Positions 18,740 to 59,239 of a DNA stretch of 64,000 nt are shown piece by piece. The DNA lies in the NCBI GenBank assembly GCA_937992195.1, contig CALKKV010000057.1, positions 62,001 through 126,000 on the forward strand, written 5' to 3'. The position numbers were made by a program, and so were the translations under genes. Source of the DNA: an uncultured Gammaproteobacteria bacterium. GTDB lineage: Bacteria; Pseudomonadota; Gammaproteobacteria; Arenicellales; Poriferihabitantaceae. The first letter of the stretch is position 1; every line of letters begins with the position of its first letter. A model generated the notes under the pieces. The model saw only the letters and a list, made by a program, of their open reading frames with translations, was not told the origin of the DNA and searched no databases.

Positions 18740-21181
18740 TTAAGCTCTGGATCGCTCAGCCTGCGGATCCCAAACAGGATCGTTAATCACAGTAGCCTGA
18801 CGCATTTTTCCTAACAGTTCCACCGTTAACTTTTTTCCCTCTTGTGCATAGGCGGTTTCCACATACGCAAAACCCAAACTCTTCTGGGTGGTATGACCGT
18901 AACCACCTGAGGTAGTAATACCAATTGGTTTGTCATCAATAAATACTGTTTCGCCGCCAGCTATGTCGTTGTCGCCGGGTTCAACCTCAAGATAAACAAT
19001 CTGAATTTCAGTATCTGCTTTCTTAATTTTCTCTAACGCAGACTTGCCTACATAATTTTCTTTGGCATCGTTCACAAATCGTTCGACGTCTGCCTCTACC
19101 GGAGATATTTCATTGGTCAGCTCAGCACCCCATCCTTTGTATGCTTTCTCTATCCTTAAAGAGTTCATCGCATAGGTGCCAAAGTTAGCGATCCCGTGGG
19201 GCTGGCCCGCTTCCCATAGAGCGTTGTACACCGTCAGCATATCTTCCATCCGGCAATGTAACTCCCAACCGAGTTCGCCAACGTAATTCACCCGAAGTGC
19301 ACGCACCGATGCACCCGCCACCTGTATCTCTTGTCCGGTCAACCATTTGAAGTCGGCATTTTCCAAACTGCTATCGGTTAGTGTTTTCAATACATCCCTC
19401 GAAGCAGGACCGGCCAAAACAAGGACTCCAAAATCGTTGGTAACATTAGTCACCTCTACTTCTTCACCGTCAGCAATACCCTGTCTCAGAATAGACAAAT
19501 CTCGCATCTCGGAATTTGCCCCGGAAAGAACATAATAATGATCTGGCGTCAGTTTTGTCACCGTTGACTCGCCATTCAACCTGCCTTCTTCAGAAAGGTA
19601 ATGGGTCAACGTGATTCCGCCAGCACGGATCGGCATCTTGTTTGCAGATAGACGATTAAGCAGGCTCTCCGCATCTTTTCCGATGACATCATATTTTGCA
19701 AAACTGGATAATTCCAGAATACCCACTCTCTCTCGAACCGCCTTACACTCTTCGGCAACAACTTCAAAAGTATTATTGTGACGAAATCCAATTTCTTCTT
19801 CGCGACCATCAAGGGAAAACCATTTCGGTCTCTCCCATCCATTGGCTTCAGCATACACCGCACCCATCTCCTCCAAACGATCATATACAGGCGTTATACG
19901 CATCTTGCGTCCTCCGGGACGCTCCTCGCCAGGCAAATGTAATTTATACATATGCTCGTAGTCTTCATGGGATTTTTCTTTGGTGTAACTGCCTGGCGCA
20001 AAATCGCTGTAACGCCGCGGATCAAGCCCGGCCATATTGATTTCTGCATCACCGTAGATCATCCATTGCGCAAGGTACTTTCCGCAACCTGCGCCAGAGG
20101 CAATGCCAATAGAAGCGCCATTCATATGCCAGAAATTCTGTATCCCAGCAGCAGGGCCCACAAACGGATTGCTGTCCGGCGTATGCGGAATCGCACCACA
20201 TACAACGCGCTTAATACCGAGCTCTCCCCACATCGGAATACGTTCCATCACGCGTTCAATGTAAGGCATCAAGTTATCGAAATCAGGATCAAATAATTCG
20301 TTTACTGAATCCCATTCCGGCCATCCACCACGATGGGTCCAGCACTCTTCCGATTTTGCCATCTCGTAGATTCCGATCAACGCCGACTTTTGCTCTTGAC
20401 GATAATAAGAAGATGGATAGGGGTCACGTATCACCGGCATTTCAGTCTCGGCGTTCATAAACTCTTCCACCGTTTCCGTGACTATATATGTGTGCTTCAT
20501 ATTGATCATTGGAATGTCCGTTCCGACCATTTGAGAAACCTGTCGTGCGTAACAGCCCGCTGCGTTCACAACATGCTCTGCTACGACGGTACCCTGCTCA
20601 GTAATCACATCCCAGTCTCCTGAGCTTCTTTGTTTTATGTCTAAAACACGATTGTTGGTAACAATTTTTGCGCCGAAGTTTCTCGCGCCTTTGGCCATCG
20701 CGTTACACACACCAGCCGGATCAACGTGACCATCATTCATTGTCCACGCGCCAGCAATAACCCCTTCGATGTTTGCGTATGGAACCAATTGTTTGATTTT
20801 TGCCGGGTCGATAATTTCGCAATCATAGCCAATTAATTTGCCAACGCTGGCAACCCGCTCAAACCATTCAACTTCGGCCGTATTCTGCGCAAAGCGAATA
20901 CCGCCGCAGCCATGCCAGCTGACATATTGGCCGGTTAATTCTTCAAGCTTTTGGTAGAGATTAATACCGTAGTCGTGAATCTTTGCAACGTTGTAATCCG
21001 CAACAAAGTTTGGACACTGGCCGGCAGCGTGCCAAGTTGAACCAGAAGTTAATTCTCCCTTCTCGATCAACAAACAATCTGTCCAGCCTTCCTCAGCAAG
21101 ATGATAAAGCAGGCTTGCGCCCATGTTACCGCCGCCAACAATGACCACTCGAGCCTGGCCTGGCAATGTAGAACCGTTCAT
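18740..21181 (-). CDS. DMGDH-like FAD oxidoreductase fused to GcvT/aminomethyltransferase domains (copy 1)
   Basis: 813-residue protein of the dimethylglycine/sarcosine dehydrogenase type. An N-terminal DAO domain starts with VVIVGGGNMGAS (12-23) and contains SGSTWHAAG (46-54); in dimethylglycine dehydrogenase the histidine of the corresponding motif carries covalent FAD. The C-terminal half (about 445-800) resembles the GcvT T-protein, which binds tetrahydrofolate (GELGWELHC, TSGGYGHT). Such enzymes oxidise an N-methyl group and pass the one-carbon unit to folate. The gene lies 16 bases downstream of an MttB homologue, surely one operon. No signal peptide is present, so it acts in the cytoplasm. 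The exact N-methyl substrate cannot be read from the sequence. Confidence 0.85.
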   Translation of the reverse strand: MNGSTLPGQARVVIVGGGNMGASLLYHLAEEGWTDCLLIEKGELTSGSTWHAAGQCPNFVADYNVAKIHDYGINLYQKLEELTGQYVSWHGCGGIRFAQNTAEVEWFERVASVGKLIGYDCEIIDPAKIKQLVPYANIEGVIAGAWTMNDGHVDPAGVCNAMAKGARNFGAKIVTNNRVLDIKQRSSGDWDVITEQGTVVAEHVVNAAGCYARQVSQMVGTDIPMINMKHTYIVTETVEEFMNAETEMPVIRDPYPSSYYRQEQKSALIGIYEMAKSEECWTHRGGWPEWDSVNELFDPDFDNLMPYIERVMERIPMWGELGIKRVVCGAIPHTPDSNPFVGPAAGIQNFWHMNGASIGIASGAGCGKYLAQWMIYGDAEINMAGLDPRRYSDFAPGSYTKEKSHEDYEHMYKLHLPGEERPGGRKMRITPVYDRLEEMGAVYAEANGWERPKWFSLDGREEEIGFRHNNTFEVVAEECKAVRERVGILELSSFAKYDVIGKDAESLLNRLSANKMPIRAGGITLTHYLSEEGRLNGESTVTKLTPDHYYVLSGANSEMRDLSILRQGIADGEEVEVTNVTNDFGVLVLAGPASRDVLKTLTDSSLENADFKWLTGQEIQVAGASVRALRVNYVGELGWELHCRMEDMLTVYNALWEAGQPHGIANFGTYAMNSLRIEKAYKGWGAELTNEISPVEADVERFVNDAKENYVGKSALEKIKKADTEIQIVYLEVEPGDNDIAGGETVFIDDKPIGITTSGGYGHTTQKSLGFAYVETAYAQEGKKLTVELLGKMRQATVINDPVWDPQAERSRA

Positions 21182-21197
21182 ACAAAATCTCTTAATA

Positions 21198-22769
21198 TCA
21201 ATTACTTATTTTCATTTTTTCACGTGGAATGCGAATATCGAATTTCTCTCTGATTCGCGCGTCCACCTCGTCAGGAATATGCGAAGGAAAATGGGTTGCC
21301 AATATTTCCTCGGTTTTTCTCCTCGCACGCTGGTCAATGGTTGTTGCCCCTAATTCCATCCATTCAGCCGGCGTAAGGCGATCCCCCAAATCCGGATAGA
21401 CGTAATCAGTCTCCATTCTAGACAGCGTAGCTGAATGCCCAAGAAAATGTTCTGGACCATTTAAACAAACATCCTGAATCGTCTCATAGGCAAGATTTTC
21501 AGTATCAATGTCCACCCCGCGCACACTGCGATTAATGGCCCCCAGCATGTCATTATCAATGGTACATCCTTCGAAGCTAAATCCGAGCAGGCTCGCCTGC
21601 ATCCCGGCGGATTCGTAGATCATGTTTGCTCCGCTATGACCTGCAAGAGACAAAGTATAAGATTTCTCATACCCAGACTGTGCGTCTGGCACCTTCGAAT
21701 CTGCCATACCGGCAGCAATTCCGGTGGGTAAATTATAATAGCGTCCCATTTGACCGCATGCAGCCATCAAGACCGCCTGTTCCCCACTACCGCCACTCAT
21801 CGCTCCAGTCCTGAGATCAGAAACAAATGGCCAGGGCCCAGCGATGCAGGGATGCTTCGGTACGATCGCATTGACATATACCAATGCCCCTAATACCTCG
21901 GCCCATTCTTGCACTACCGCACCTGCAAGAGATGCGGGACTGGTAGCACCGGCTTGACCGGCTGCCAGCAGCAGAGTCGGCATCCCGCCTTTCACACAGA
22001 CTTCCATTACCCTGCAAGCGTCTTCAGCAAATCGCATTGGCGGCACCACAAAGCAACAAGACAAACTGGCAAATGGTTTCGCTCGCCACTTATCTTCGCC
22101 GCCAGCTATTTCATGTAATAGTTTTAACCCTTCAACCGCGTGTTCGGGTTCCACATAGCTGAGGCCACAGTGTTTGGTGGTACCGCTGACAGACGCATAA
22201 GTCGTATTCAGATCCATCGCCCTTGGACTCTCAATATCTCTAGCAACCATACAGCGCTGAAAAAAGTGCAGGTGATCCAGCTTATCTACCAGCCTGGCAG
22301 CATCATATAAATCCAGAACCGTAGATTCGCGATAAAGACCTTTACCCGGATAGGCATCATGAGCTTTCCATTCGTCCACGACATGCACCGCTGCTCCGGC
22401 AGTGCCAAAATGCACCTTGTTTCCAGACAGATGCATATCGTGAGCGGAATCCTGCCCGTATAACGTAAAGTCTCTTAACGCATTGGCAATGGTGTCTTCG
22501 ACCAATGCCCGTGGAAACTTTAAGCGTCCGTTTTCAAACTTACCGCCCACCCCTTTGACGTATTCGATACATGTTTCTGTTGAACGCGTAAACCCAACGT
22601 TCTCTAACAGATCAAGAATCGTTGCATGAATCTTGTCCATATCCTTATCGGTGAGTGGTTTAAAACAACCACCCTCCATTCCAGGCCGCACCGGCTTACT
22701 ATCTTCTGCCAGCGGAGCCGCGCGTAGTGCCTTACGTGCCTCTCGACCTCCAGCTCTTCTACTTGCCAT
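21198..22769 (-). CDS. MttB superfamily methyltransferase without pyrrolysine (copy 1)
   Basis: 523-residue member of the trimethylamine methyltransferase family (MttB, PF06253). The open frame has no internal amber codon, so it belongs with the non-pyrrolysine MttB homologues, such as glycine betaine methyltransferase MtgB, carnitine MtcB and proline betaine MtpB. Residues 1-35 are basic and poorly conserved; the TIM-barrel region runs from about 40 to 510. The start has a strong GGAGGAA ribosome site. Characterised homologues pass the methyl group to a corrinoid protein, but no corrinoid-binding gene is near. The next gene is the FAD/GcvT oxidoreductase, 16 bases on, suggesting a folate-linked route. 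The substrate is unknown. Confidence 0.85.
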   Translation of the reverse strand: MASRRAGGREARKALRAAPLAEDSKPVRPGMEGGCFKPLTDKDMDKIHATILDLLENVGFTRSTETCIEYVKGVGGKFENGRLKFPRALVEDTIANALRDFTLYGQDSAHDMHLSGNKVHFGTAGAAVHVVDEWKAHDAYPGKGLYRESTVLDLYDAARLVDKLDHLHFFQRCMVARDIESPRAMDLNTTYASVSGTTKHCGLSYVEPEHAVEGLKLLHEIAGGEDKWRAKPFASLSCCFVVPPMRFAEDACRVMEVCVKGGMPTLLLAAGQAGATSPASLAGAVVQEWAEVLGALVYVNAIVPKHPCIAGPWPFVSDLRTGAMSGGSGEQAVLMAACGQMGRYYNLPTGIAAGMADSKVPDAQSGYEKSYTLSLAGHSGANMIYESAGMQASLLGFSFEGCTIDNDMLGAINRSVRGVDIDTENLAYETIQDVCLNGPEHFLGHSATLSRMETDYVYPDLGDRLTPAEWMELGATTIDQRARRKTEEILATHFPSHIPDEVDARIREKFDIRIPREKMKISN

Positions 22770-22984
22770 GGTATTCCTCCATCGAACAATAATTTTTCAC
22801 CATGGCAGCATATGAAACCGGCTACACCAAGGTTTTTAGTAAACCGCTAGGGTATTACAAGTGAATTAGAATGAGGAATACTTTAGGGTCTAATTTACGA
22901 CCGCAAGTTCTATTAACGCGCCGAAGTCTAGCAGTATTGGAAGTTACTGCAGATTTCATCAAACATAACGATCTCTAAAGCGTT

Positions 22985-23962
22985 TTAATGCTGATTCCGG
23001 GTCTCGCGGGGGGTCTCGCCAAAACTCGAAAAGTATCGGCTACTGAAATGCCCGGCTGATTTAAAACCACAGGCAATCGCCACATCGATCACTTTCATCG
23101 AAGTTTTCTCCAGCAACCCCTTGGCAGACTCCAAGCGCAAGGTAAGGTAATACCGCGCCGGCGTGGTATTGAGGTAGCGACGAAACAATCGTTCCAACTG
23201 ACGTTTGGAAACTCCGACAAGATTGGCGAGCTCGGCCGGAGTGAGTGGTTGTTCGATATTGGCCTCGATCAATTCAATACACTCGAGTAGATCGGGGTGG
23301 GTGACACCGGTCCGAGATTGCACGTCCATCCGTTGCGGCTCTCCGGTGGAGCGAATATGCGGATGAATCATACTGTCCGCTACCGATGCCGCTAACTCGT
23401 GCCCATGATGTTGTTCGATCACGTAGAGCATCATATCGATCGAAGCTGCACCGCCCGAACAAGTTAATCTGTTTTGATCAATCTCATAGACATCAGAGGT
23501 CACCTTATAACCTGGCCAAGCATCCTTAAACTGCCCCATGTTTTCCCAATGAGTGGTGCATTGCAATCCTTCAAGCAAACCTGCTTCCGCGAGAATATGA
23601 CATCCTGTTTCTAAACCGGCGATCAGCGTATCTTTTTCTGACTGGCTTTGCAGCCAGGCTAGAATCGGCTCAGAGTCAAATTTTTCCGGATAATAAGGCC
23701 CGGATACAACCACCATAGAAAAGCTGTCTTCTGTGTTAATCGAGCAATCGATAGCTTGCATCATTCCATTGGAAGCAGAGATGTTGGAACCATCCTCGCT
23801 AATGAGTCGCCATTGATATAGCGGCTTTTTCGCCAGTCTGTTGGCTATCCTCAGTGGCTCCAGAGCGGAAATAAAAGGCAGCATATTAAACGAGTTGCAC
23901 AACAGAAACCCGATGCATCTTTCTGCGCCTTCACGCATGTAGCCGTAATCTATCTCATTCAT
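22985..23962 (-). CDS. GlxA-family AraC-type transcriptional regulator
   Basis: 325-residue regulator with an N-terminal DJ-1/PfpI-like domain (about 10-190) and a C-terminal AraC helix-turn-helix pair (about 230-322; LANLVGVSKRQLERLFRRY and DVAIACGFKSAGHFSSRYF). This architecture is shared by GbdR, CdhR and SouR, which control glycine betaine, carnitine and sarcosine catabolism in Pseudomonas. It lies 215 bases upstream of the MttB homologue on the same strand, so it is the likely activator of that operon and may bind in the 22770-22984 gap. It is divergent from the dehydrogenase gene at 24100. Confidence 0.88.
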   Translation of the reverse strand: MNEIDYGYMREGAERCIGFLLCNSFNMLPFISALEPLRIANRLAKKPLYQWRLISEDGSNISASNGMMQAIDCSINTEDSFSMVVVSGPYYPEKFDSEPILAWLQSQSEKDTLIAGLETGCHILAEAGLLEGLQCTTHWENMGQFKDAWPGYKVTSDVYEIDQNRLTCSGGAASIDMMLYVIEQHHGHELAASVADSMIHPHIRSTGEPQRMDVQSRTGVTHPDLLECIELIEANIEQPLTPAELANLVGVSKRQLERLFRRYLNTTPARYYLTLRLESAKGLLEKTSMKVIDVAIACGFKSAGHFSSRYFSSFGETPRETRNQH

Positions 23963-54423: not shown

Positions 54424-56841
54424 CTATCCGCGCATTCTCTCGGCCTTGGGATCAAACAATACCTGGTCGATTAATGTAGCGCTACACATCTCCCCGAGAA
54501 TTTCAATCTCAACCTCTATCCCTGACGCAATAAGAGAAACAGGTAAAAACCCAATCGCCACACTCTTTTCAGAGTAATGCGCATATCCTCCTGAAGTGAC
54601 AAAGCCAACGACCTTTCCGTTCATCCAGATGGGTTCATCTGCGACGGCGTCGGCATCATTTGCATCAACAACAAAGGTGCATAATTTTCTGTCGACGCCC
54701 TTCTTGCGTTCGAGGACAGCCGCTTTCTTGCCGATAAAGTCAGCTACTTTGTTATATGCAACAAAGCGATCCAAACCTGTTTCTAGCGGCGTATAGTCCG
54801 GCTTGTACTCGGAGAGCCAGGAACCAAAAGATTTCTCCAAACGCAGGCTCATCATTGCACGCATGCCAAATGGGCGCATTCCAAATGCCTTGCCAGCCTC
54901 GGTTAAAACTCCATATAGCGCTACCTGTTGTGATGAAGGCACGTAAATTTCATAACCCAAATCTCCAGTATAGGAAACCCGTTGTACCAATGCTTCGCAC
55001 TGTCCAATTTGCATCTTTCGTACAGACAAAAATGGCAATGCCTGATTAGAGACATCTGCCCTGGCAACCGCCTCCAGTACAGCACGTGCTTTCGGTCCTG
55101 CGATCTGAAATCCAACGCGTTCATTTGAGACATTACGGATCTTTACGCCTTTGTCCGACAAGTTCTGCTCTAGCCATCGCAAGTGATAGTTTTGTGAACC
55201 ATAGGAAGCATTTAACTGAAAAGAATTTTCGGACAGTTTCGATACGGTGAAATCACCAATAAGACGCCCTTTTTCACTCAACATCGGACAGAGTGTTAAG
55301 CGACCAAGTTTCGGCATATGACCGGCCATAATTCGATCTAACCAACTTTCAGCACCTTTTCCTGTTACCTCGAACTTACTAAAGTTATGAATCTCATTTA
55401 TGCCAACCGCTGTCCGAACGGCCCTGCATTCTTCAGCCACTACATCAAAGGCATTCGACCTTCTAAAGGATGGAATCTCCCATGCGGATTCTCCCTCGGG
55501 CGCAAAATAATTGACGTGCTCCATTCCATACCCAACTCCAAACACAGCATTGAGCTGTTGCCATATTCCATACATGGGCGTAGTGTTATACGGCCGTGCG
55601 GTCGGCAACTCTTCATTTGGATAAGAAACTGAAAAACGTCGCTGGTAATTTTCTCTCACCTTCAGCCGGGTGAAAGAACGATTTGGATAGTCACCAAAAC
55701 GCGAAACGTCCATAGCAAATACATCTCGACTGGGTTCACCTTCAACCATCCATTCAGCAAGCACTAAGCCGACTCCACCACCCTGACTGAAACCCGCCAT
55801 CACACCGCAAGCCGACCAGTAGTTTTGCAAGCCCTGTACCGGCCCAACCAATGGATTACCATCCGGTGCAAACGTGAATGGTCCATTGATGATCGTTTTG
55901 ATACCGGCTTTTTCCAGCACCGGGTAACGGCGATACGCCTGTGCCAGTGAGTCTCCTATACGATCGAGATTATCGGGCAAAAGTTCATGACCAAAATCCC
56001 AACTGGTGCCGTCTACAGCCCAGGGATCACAATCCTGTTCGTAGAATCCAATGACCAAACCGTCTCGCTCCTGGCGTAAATAACTTTCTCCCTCCGGATC
56101 CATGACATGGGGAAGTTCACTTCCATGGTTAACGACTTCATCAATTCTCTCAGTCGCAAGATACTGATGTTCCATTGGATGCAATGGCAGGTAGGCGCCA
56201 ACCATCTCACCCACCTCTCTTGCCCAAAGTCCTGCTGCATTAACGACATGCTCGGCGATAATGGGTCCTTGTTCTGTGACCACTTCCCAACTACCACCTG
56301 TTCTCGGGTTTAAAGCAAGAACACGATTGCGTAAAACAATCTCCGCACCATTATTCTTCGCGGCCCGCGCATAAGCATGGGTCGTGCCGGACGGATCCAA
56401 ATGACCGTCTAGCGGATCATAAAGTCCACCGATAATGCCGTCAGTGTTGGTAATCGGAGATAGCTGCTGTATCTCTTGCGGACTGACTAAATGTGTATCG
56501 AGCCCCATATATCGATGTTTCGCTCGCTCAGCCTTTAAGAAATCCATCCGGTCCTGGGTTCCGGCAAGAGTAATACCCCCAACATGGTGCAGGCCACAAC
56601 TTTGTCCAGACTGTTTCTCAAGTTCCTTATAGAGCTCTATCGTATAGCCTTGCAATGCCGCCATGTTGGTATCAGCATTGAGCGTATGAAATCCACCTGC
56701 TGCATGCCAGGTAGAACCTGAGGTCAATTCAGAACGTTCAATCAGCGTTACGTCAGTCCAACCGAGACGAGTTAAGTGATACAGGACACTGCAGCCAACA
56801 ACACCGCCACCAATAATTACGACTTGAGTATGGGATTTCAT
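54424..56841 (-). CDS. DMGDH-like FAD oxidoreductase fused to GcvT domains (copy 2)
   Basis: 805 residues with the same plan as the enzyme at 18740. The N-terminal DAO domain has VVIIGGGVVGCS (7-18) and SGSTWHAAGG (41-50; the histidine corresponds to the covalent-FAD site of dimethylglycine dehydrogenase). The C-terminal GcvT part includes GDLGYEIYV and TSGGYAHYS. Sequence divergence from copy 1 is large, so this is an old paralogue, not a recent duplication. It follows the XRE gene by 35 bases and the MttB homologue, in one minus-strand operon. It probably oxidises an N-methyl amine and passes the methylene group to tetrahydrofolate; the substrate is unknown. Confidence 0.85.
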   Translation of the reverse strand: MKSHTQVVIIGGGVVGCSVLYHLTRLGWTDVTLIERSELTSGSTWHAAGGFHTLNADTNMAALQGYTIELYKELEKQSGQSCGLHHVGGITLAGTQDRMDFLKAERAKHRYMGLDTHLVSPQEIQQLSPITNTDGIIGGLYDPLDGHLDPSGTTHAYARAAKNNGAEIVLRNRVLALNPRTGGSWEVVTEQGPIIAEHVVNAAGLWAREVGEMVGAYLPLHPMEHQYLATERIDEVVNHGSELPHVMDPEGESYLRQERDGLVIGFYEQDCDPWAVDGTSWDFGHELLPDNLDRIGDSLAQAYRRYPVLEKAGIKTIINGPFTFAPDGNPLVGPVQGLQNYWSACGVMAGFSQGGGVGLVLAEWMVEGEPSRDVFAMDVSRFGDYPNRSFTRLKVRENYQRRFSVSYPNEELPTARPYNTTPMYGIWQQLNAVFGVGYGMEHVNYFAPEGESAWEIPSFRRSNAFDVVAEECRAVRTAVGINEIHNFSKFEVTGKGAESWLDRIMAGHMPKLGRLTLCPMLSEKGRLIGDFTVSKLSENSFQLNASYGSQNYHLRWLEQNLSDKGVKIRNVSNERVGFQIAGPKARAVLEAVARADVSNQALPFLSVRKMQIGQCEALVQRVSYTGDLGYEIYVPSSQQVALYGVLTEAGKAFGMRPFGMRAMMSLRLEKSFGSWLSEYKPDYTPLETGLDRFVAYNKVADFIGKKAAVLERKKGVDRKLCTFVVDANDADAVADEPIWMNGKVVGFVTSGGYAHYSEKSVAIGFLPVSLIASGIEVEIEILGEMCSATLIDQVLFDPKAERMRG

Positions 56842-56876
56842 ATAAATTTATATTCAGTATATTTACAGAGAAAAAT

Positions 56877-57725
56877 TCAAACTTTTTTCATTAAGCATTC
56901 TAGAAAATTGGAAATTTCATTCGGCTGTACTATCGCGTTTCGAATAAGCTCATCAAAGCGTCGAGAGAAAAAACGAATATGTTCAGTACTATTGAGCACG
57001 AGATACGATTGGCCAATAAAGATCACAGCCCGCATTGGCCCAAATAACGTAAAGGCAGCAGTATGAATCTCTCTGCTATCAAATAAAAACCAGCGAAACC
57101 TGGGGTAGAGTTCATCCACCAAACTCTTCATATGCTGCAGCTGTTCGAGACGCATTTCTTTTGAAAGATCAGACCAAATTCCTTCACCCCTTGCAAACCC
57201 CTCGATGTCTTGGATAGACTGACAAACCTCCATCTCAGATTCTTCTCTTCTTTGCTGAATTAACAACACATGGGTATCACGAATACTCTGATCGGTTTTA
57301 CCTAAGCCATAGCGTTTAAATTCATAGCTTGCAACGTGTTCGGTTTTACATAGATCAGGTAAGGTCGCTGGTATATAACGCACTTTGTAATTGCTGGCCT
57401 CTTGATGCCATTGCAACAATTTTTGATTGGCCGAAGACTCGGAGAAATCTTCAAACTCCAAAGGTTCAGTAAGCACATCTGCAGCTAACGTACCGTGACT
57501 GGTGAGACCTAGTAGCCAGTCAACACTGACTTGATATTGTTCAGCAATCGCTGCGATGGTATCCGCTCTGGGCAGCCTTGAATTTCTATTGGATAGCAGC
57601 TGCGACAATGTTGACCGATCGACATCTATCGATGCAGCAAACTTCGAATGATTTAGCCCGCTACTTGAGATAACTTGTTCAATCCGTTCTCGAAATATAG
57701 CTACCCGATCGCGATGTTTCACCAC
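56877..57725 (-). CDS. XRE-family transcriptional regulator with unknown C-terminal domain
   Basis: 282 residues. An N-terminal helix-turn-helix (about 10-72; SKFAASIDVDRSTLSQLLS) is of the XRE/Cro type. The C-terminal 200 residues do not resemble a known ligand domain to me; they include RYIPATLPDLCKTEHV and FRWFLFDSREIHTAAFTLFG. It starts with GTG at 57725, overlapping the MttB stop by 7 bases, and lies between the methyltransferase and FAD/GcvT genes, so it is translationally tied to the operon and probably autoregulates it. The divergent region 59240-59426 is a likely target. Confidence 0.82.
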   Translation of the reverse strand: MVKHRDRVAIFRERIEQVISSSGLNHSKFAASIDVDRSTLSQLLSNRNSRLPRADTIAAIAEQYQVSVDWLLGLTSHGTLAADVLTEPLEFEDFSESSANQKLLQWHQEASNYKVRYIPATLPDLCKTEHVASYEFKRYGLGKTDQSIRDTHVLLIQQRREESEMEVCQSIQDIEGFARGEGIWSDLSKEMRLEQLQHMKSLVDELYPRFRWFLFDSREIHTAAFTLFGPMRAVIFIGQSYLVLNSTEHIRFFSRRFDELIRNAIVQPNEISNFLECLMKKV

Positions 57726-59239
57726 TGCACCTTAATTTCTGATCGGCGCTTTTCAACATACGCCGTTAACGACTCTTCTACAGCTGGATCGATCGCGGGC
57801 TTCTGATAGCTCGCTAAAAGCTCTTTAAAAATAGTGTTTGCTCTTTGGTCAGCAGTTTTCGACCCAGTTTCTTCCCAAGTCTCAAAGTTACTCCAGTCAG
57901 CCACCAACGGTTTATAGAACGCATCTTTGTATCTTGACATGGTATGACTTGTACCAAAGTGATGACCACCTGCCCCCACTTCTTTGATTGCTTCGAGCGC
58001 CAGATCTTCTTCCGTTACCGTGATCGGCTTTAAGGTCTCAACCATCATCTGCACCATTTCCATATCGAGGATGAATTTTTCAAATGAGGCGCACAATCCA
58101 CCTTCCAACCAGCCTCCACTATGTTTTATTAAATTTCCATGGGCCATTACAGCGCTCCATAAAGACATCTCTGACTCCCATGCAGACTGTGCATCAGGTG
58201 CATTCGCAGCATTGACGTTAGAGGTTCGATACGGGATTGCATATTTTCTAGACAATTGCCCGCCGGCAAGAACCGCGCGCGCATATTCTGGTGTCCCAAA
58301 GGCCGGAGCTCCGGTTTTCATATCAACATTTGATGTAAAACCGCCATACATGGCCGGGGCTCCCGGACTAACCATCTGGGTAATCGCAATCACACCAAGT
58401 GCTTCGGCATTTTGTTGAGCCAGCGCGCCACCAAGTGTGACAGGGCACATCGCCCCCGCTAATGTAAACGGCGTAACAACTACTGGCTGGTTGTATTCCG
58501 CCATCAACATCAAACCGTCCAACATTGGCCCGTCCACTTTCAAAGGAGAATTGGTATTCACCACGGTCAATATACTCGGCTGCTTCTTTAGCGTTTCGTC
58601 GTCGATTTGACGAGCAAGTTTGATCATCTCAATCGCATCTTCAACCTTGCCGTTTCCGAGGCTATAACAATGCCATGGTTTCTCACTGAGTGTTGTAAAC
58701 CCCAGATATGCGTCCAGATGCCGCGTGTGTGCAGGCAAATCGGTTGGCTCAACTGGATAACCCGAGAACAATCCAATCACATTGAAGATCTGCCCCAGCT
58801 TAAGAAACCGACTGTAGTCTTCAAAATTCCCGCTCCGTCGGCCATGATCTAGATCTGATGCATTTGGCGGACTTGCAACCGTCGAAAAGTTGATATGGTT
58901 GCCACCGTATACGCTGTTGTATATCGGATTCCTCGCGTGCAACGTAAACTCTGACGGCACGCTGGCTATTTTTTCCATCACCAGAGCACGATCCATACAC
59001 ACATATCCTGTCCCAGGATCAATCTTTGCACCATGCTCTACCATCAGAGCCCGCGCTCGATCGTTGACGATCTGCAATCCTGTGTCTTCTAATATTCGCA
59101 TTGATCCGTCATGGATCGCTTCCAATGCCTCTGGGCTTAAAACTTCAATGGGCGGAAATGGATTACGTAACTGCTTTACAGGTAACTGCTCAAGGGACTT
59201 CTCAGCACCTGTATTGCTACGTCGATTTCTTCTGCTCAT
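57719..59239 (-). CDS. MttB superfamily methyltransferase without pyrrolysine (copy 2)
   Basis: 506-residue MttB homologue with no in-frame amber codon. The N-terminus is short and basic (MSRRNRRSNTGAE), and the TIM-barrel part runs from about 35 to 495 (EKPWHCYSLGNGKVEDAIEM, AGGHHFGTSHTMSRYKDAF). It is only distantly related to copy 1 at 21198. The partner gene for a corrinoid protein is absent; instead an XRE regulator and an FAD/GcvT enzyme follow. The ATG has a GAGGCG site. Likely a corrinoid- or folate-linked demethylase of a quaternary or N-methylated amine; the substrate cannot be inferred. It is divergent from the desaturase gene. Confidence 0.85.
   Translation of the reverse strand: MSRRNRRSNTGAEKSLEQLPVKQLRNPFPPIEVLSPEALEAIHDGSMRILEDTGLQIVNDRARALMVEHGAKIDPGTGYVCMDRALVMEKIASVPSEFTLHARNPIYNSVYGGNHINFSTVASPPNASDLDHGRRSGNFEDYSRFLKLGQIFNVIGLFSGYPVEPTDLPAHTRHLDAYLGFTTLSEKPWHCYSLGNGKVEDAIEMIKLARQIDDETLKKQPSILTVVNTNSPLKVDGPMLDGLMLMAEYNQPVVVTPFTLAGAMCPVTLGGALAQQNAEALGVIAITQMVSPGAPAMYGGFTSNVDMKTGAPAFGTPEYARAVLAGGQLSRKYAIPYRTSNVNAANAPDAQSAWESEMSLWSAVMAHGNLIKHSGGWLEGGLCASFEKFILDMEMVQMMVETLKPITVTEEDLALEAIKEVGAGGHHFGTSHTMSRYKDAFYKPLVADWSNFETWEETGSKTADQRANTIFKELLASYQKPAIDPAVEESLTAYVEKRRSEIKVQW

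Follow-up and report, generated by a model that had tools for sequence, protein, structure and literature searches.

The operon at 18740-23962 of the window, by which we mean the whole stretch of 64,000 nucleotides that was analysed, is probably a GlxA-regulated module in which a non-pyrrolysine MttB homologue works with an MtgC-type corrinoid protein whose gene lies at another site of the genome and is followed by demethylation through a DMGDH-like FAD/GcvT enzyme. We propose that the module would serve the catabolism of a methylated ammonium compound. MttB would transfer one methyl group of the substrate to the Co(I) of the corrinoid protein, an MtgD-like pterin enzyme would move that methyl from MtgC to tetrahydrofolate (THF), RACo, with a DUF1638 protein, would hold the cobalt reduced, and the FAD/GcvT enzyme would oxidatively demethylate the MttB product to yield 5,10-methylene-THF. 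At the level of sequence, this proposal is supported by the genes and their order, the conservation of catalytic residues in the FAD/GcvT protein, the presence of a corrinoid core in the genome, and a matched phylogenetic profile; from these we infer that this MttB uses this MtgC and that the two demethylations occur in the order given.

Organisation of the operon and its FAD/GcvT enzyme

The three genes lie on the minus strand, beginning with a GlxA/AraC-type transcription regulator of 325 aa (22985-23962) that contains a DJ-1/PfpI domain and an AraC HTH (Pfam). A gap of 215 bp (22770-22984, minus strand) separates it from mttB and, judging from its position, probably holds the operon promoter. 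The MttB homologue (21198-22769; 523 aa; PF06253) is a putative methylated-amine:corrinoid methyltransferase, and 16 bases lie between its stop and the start of the FAD/GcvT fusion (18740-21181; 813 aa), a putative oxidative N-demethylase delivering methylene-THF whose domains are DAO, FAO_M, GCV_T, and GCV_T_C. Open reading frames and Pfam matches bear out this three-gene set and the 16-base spacing as the initial annotation had described them. The regulator probably controls the two genes downstream of it, which are presumably co-transcribed. It had been assigned to the GbdR type, and GbdR (NF052371) is its best NCBIfam model, but the score of 341 bits falls below the cut-off of 480; the protein appears to be of the same kind as GbdR, and we say no more of it than that.

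In the FAD/GcvT protein, the His of the STWHAAG motif, the flavin-site His and Tyr, and the Asp of the GcvT domain are conserved, and these key residues together with the DAO, FAO_M, and GcvT domains place it in the DMGDH family. We take the STWHAAG His to bind FAD covalently, and the flavin-site His and Tyr and the GcvT Asp to have the roles generally assumed for them in the family. The protein aligns from end to end with human dimethylglycine dehydrogenase (PDB 5l46; 643 bits; ~40% identity across 800 residues) and has the same domain order, and the flavin-site and GcvT residues of the human enzyme have their matches here. Unlike that enzyme, the protein is bacterial and is one of eight FAD/GcvT paralogues in its genome, and its activity on dimethylglycine is putative. 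A regulated, folate-linked N-demethylation module, the broader suggestion of the initial annotation, is supported.

Nine PF06253 proteins are encoded in the genome, one of them in a second module inside the window (54424-59239, minus strand). This module has the same design and consists of an MttB (57719-59239), which falls on the MtgB side of the tree described below, an XRE-like regulator (56877-57725) that overlaps it by 7 bases, and a FAD/GcvT protein (54424-56841) in which the position of the GcvT Asp of DMGDH is taken by His. On contig C69 (locus L018:2328-10735), the gene after an MttB gene encodes a protein with GcvT alone, and nearby genes similar to those of glutamine synthetase and glutamate synthase are reminiscent of an N-methylglutamate or methylamine route. 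On contig C48 (L017:1234-6502), an MttB gene directly adjoins the corrinoid genes for CbiX, a CobO-type adenosyltransferase, and a chelatase-like protein. Contig C6 (L020:9309-15274) carries a further pair of MttB and FAD/GcvT genes from the branch to which the operon studied here belongs; beside it are an agmatinase-like gene and a LysR-like regulator, and the former might point to a substrate with an amine or guanidino group.

Active site of the MttB branch and conservation of the pair

PF06253 (MTTB) matches the whole MttB protein at 352 bits (Pfam), which makes it a member of the MttB superfamily (PF06253 / COG5598). Against TIGR02369, the model of the pyrrolysine TMA methyltransferase, it scores 338 bits, short of the cut-off of 525, and the pyrrolysine position is taken by Met355, so that pyrrolysine chemistry is unavailable to it. 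The best fold matches of its AlphaFold model (mean pLDDT 77, pTM 0.81) are PDB 7xcl and 2qne, which are the MttB of Methanosarcina barkeri and MtgB. In a tree of 31 proteins, its branch is separate from those of MtgB and of the paralogue linked to mtgC in its own genome, and stands nearer to pyrrolysine MttB. We do not claim a firm sister relation to the latter, since other placements of pyrrolysine MttB are disfavoured only marginally (p 0.056 and 0.059). The positions of the corrinoid interface (Thr111, Glu225, and Gly372 in M. barkeri MttB) were considered as a guide to corrinoid use and set aside, since MtgB, which is proven to be corrinoid-dependent, differs there as well.

Docking predicts that four residues of DhMtgB (Y94, N199, R309, and H345) bind glycine betaine (PMC6855144). 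The corresponding residues here are G125, F240, G350, and E386, none of the four being kept, and the paralogues on contigs C3, C48, and C69 of the same genome keep them all. Across the 81 sequences of the clade to which this MttB belongs, G125, Y385, and E386 are invariant. The occurrence of E386 where MtgB has His suggests that another group of the substrate is read at that position, and the clade may form a new specificity class in which the substrate is read by the invariant Tyr385-Glu386, a reading that we find likelier than a corrinoid-free version of the clade. In the literature on homarine catabolism and on MttB proteins paired with FAD oxidoreductases, we found no tested substrate for this branch.

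These residues bear on a plain glycine betaine pathway, in which MttB would be a glycine betaine methyltransferase acting with MtgC and the FAD/GcvT protein a dimethylglycine dehydrogenase. Such a pathway would suit the closeness of the FAD/GcvT protein to DMGDH and of the regulator to GbdR, and the published use of the corrinoid core is glycine betaine demethylation (PMC12478193). Nevertheless, the MtgB residues that the three paralogues retain are missing from this MttB (an argument that, as the residues were predicted by docking, falls short of proof), the regulator misses the GbdR cut-off, and seven other FAD/GcvT proteins are present in the genome. We therefore regard this pathway as unlikely, and glycine betaine as a doubtful substrate.

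The MttB-FAD/GcvT pair is kept in five near relatives (loci L098 to L102) at 72-83% identity. The identities of the two proteins diverge in step (83/79, 80/76, 74/74, and 73/72%), and reach about 58/61% in Alphaproteobacteria, where the operon neighbours differ. Upstream of the pair, an orthologue of the regulator is found at 61-77% identity in four of these five loci (L098, L099, L100, and L102, the match in L102 spanning 161 residues). The gene order is beyond chance. Across 80 related loci, 39 have a directly adjacent FAD/GcvT gene on the same strand; where the flank was long enough (46 loci), such a gene lies within 5 kb in 28 and is missing from that distance in 18, and individual carriers range from two FAD/GcvT genes by MttB to none. 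These adjacency counts were taken from tblastn, as simple ORF calling gave wrong readings on several GC-rich contigs. The pairing is frequent, then, but not obligatory. The 18 loci without a FAD/GcvT gene within 5 kb, of which L081 is an example, would fit two genes that share a regulator and act on different substrates, the FAD/GcvT enzyme making no use of the MttB product; in this sub-lineage, however, the pair is co-inherited and diverges in step, and we judge such a separation of functions very unlikely. The flanking genes, which include 3-hydroxyisobutyrate dehydrogenase and CitE-like genes, were considered as a guide to the substrate and rejected, as they accompany the pair in just three close relatives and at 59-64% identity, lower than that of the pair itself.

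The corrinoid core and its distribution

Searches with family profiles gave no match to PF02310, PF02607, or PF14574 within the window, which agrees with the initial annotation in that no corrinoid-binding or activase gene is present there. The absence of a corrinoid partner, to which that annotation had given weight, did not survive a search of the full genome (3.76 Mb in 95 contigs, 86% complete), in which MtgC and RACo/RamA were found on contig C3. A single cluster (C3:76152-81288) encodes an MtgC-type corrinoid protein of 232 aa, in which both B12-binding domains are present, and after it, in contig order, DUF1638, a pterin-binding methyltransferase of the methyl-THF:corrinoid type, and a RACo/RamA activase; a GlxA regulator and another MttB come next. 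The corrinoid protein, pterin methyltransferase, and RamA that an MtgBCD-type system requires of a genome are all represented. Genome-wide, PF02607 matches the MtgC protein only, and consequently no classical MetH was found in the genome; by analogy with what has been published for Ruegeria pomeroyi, methionine synthesis may here proceed via MtgC.

The distribution of these genes follows that of the MttB clade. Defined at an identity of at least 50%, the clade has 13 carriers among the 369 genomes sampled from the class; these come from seven families, and all 13 encode a stand-alone MtgC orthologue (at least 78% identity) and RACo, against a class background of 21/369 for the MtgC orthologue (at least 69% identity) and 25/369 for RACo (Fisher p 7e-19 and 2e-17, respectively, uncorrected for relatedness). 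In 50 further carrier genomes, picked from the 80 related loci of Gamma-, Alpha-, and Betaproteobacteria and Actinomycetota, an MtgC-like protein was found in 46: 44 at an identity of at least 74%, one as a partial match of 83% at a contig end, and one as a 53% homologue. Two of the other four have RACo, and G369 and G399 were found without MtgC and RACo. G369 (locus L098) is the closest relative by MttB identity. As G369 has eight MttB genes and G399 four, missing contigs are the likelier cause of the absence in both. In three loci (L137, L139, and L175), an mttB of the clade lies less than 5 kb from mtgC and DUF1638. Cultured bacteria with this type of MttB include Dongia mobilis (L171) and Mesorhizobium microcysteis (L173). 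By its own account, the reading of the initial annotation would be refuted by a corrinoid protein gene at another site in the genome whose phylogenetic profile matched, and this is what the C3 cluster, the 13 of 13 carriers, and the linkage to mtgC present. As a separate observation, a 620-aa protein in L102 (15933-17795) contains a second MtgC-like stretch (46% identity) and is encoded 3.4 kb from the clade MttB gene.

A corrinoid-free MttB that hands its product or the methyl directly to the FAD/GcvT enzyme, which would then give the C1 unit to folate, would suit the tight operon, the divergent MttB branch without the MtgB substrate residues, and genome G342 (98% complete), which has one 42%-identity cousin and neither MtgC nor RACo, but we consider it highly improbable in view of the corrinoid core in this genome and in nearly all carriers, the mtgC linkage in three loci, and two features of G342 itself, namely an MttB gene without a FAD/GcvT neighbour and a 1273-aa, MetH-sized B12 protein. 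With the corrinoid core found, the direct hand-over suggested in the initial annotation is no longer required and finds no support. The G342 protein (L093:1591-3219) is a lone MttB homologue, 42% identical to this MttB, that does not have the Tyr-Glu pair, and a FAD/GcvT gene was not found in the stretch around it; it may be a vestige, depend on a different corrinoid protein, or function without one. We likewise see very little chance that the clade, or a branch such as the G342 protein, moves the methyl to another acceptor without a corrinoid.

Relation to described systems

With the corrinoid-linked module that we favour, this MttB no longer looks like an exception to the dependence of MttB homologues on a corrinoid protein, and the case shows that neither an operon nor a window is a large enough frame in which to call a partner absent. 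The operon belongs to an already known kind of system, and its MttB branch is distinct: the branch is widespread in Proteobacteria and some Actinomycetota, is often paired with DMGDH-like oxidases, and differs in its active site from the glycine betaine enzyme. With its substrate, B12-dependent methyl cycling could gain a further compound.

The route of the MttB and FAD/GcvT pair is most likely one that marine bacteria are already known to use. In the aerobic marine MtgBCD(E) glycine betaine methyltransferase and split methionine synthase of Ruegeria pomeroyi, MtgC, MtgD, and RamA are unlinked and several MttB paralogues are present, and marine Alpha-, Gamma-, and Deltaproteobacteria have genes for the later demethylations in the vicinity of mtgBCD (PMC12478193). 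The genome studied here is similar in that MtgC, the MtgD-like protein, RamA/RACo, and DUF1638 are unlinked from this mttB, several MttB paralogues exist, and demethylation genes lie downstream; it differs in that this MttB belongs to another branch, without the predicted glycine betaine residues. In Eubacterium limosum, the MttB paralogues MtpB, MtcB, and MtyB share one corrinoid protein, MtqC (PMC8604678), a likeness in that non-pyrrolysine MttB proteins of differing specificity draw on one corrinoid core, whereas that organism is an anaerobic acetogen for which no FAD/GcvT partner was described (PMC8604678). The M. barkeri trimethylamine methyltransferase MttB (PDB 7xcl, 7xcn; PMC9842639) shares its fold with this MttB and forms the nearest branch of the tree, and its active-site Gly110 and Tyr364 have counterparts here, but it carries pyrrolysine where this MttB has Met355.
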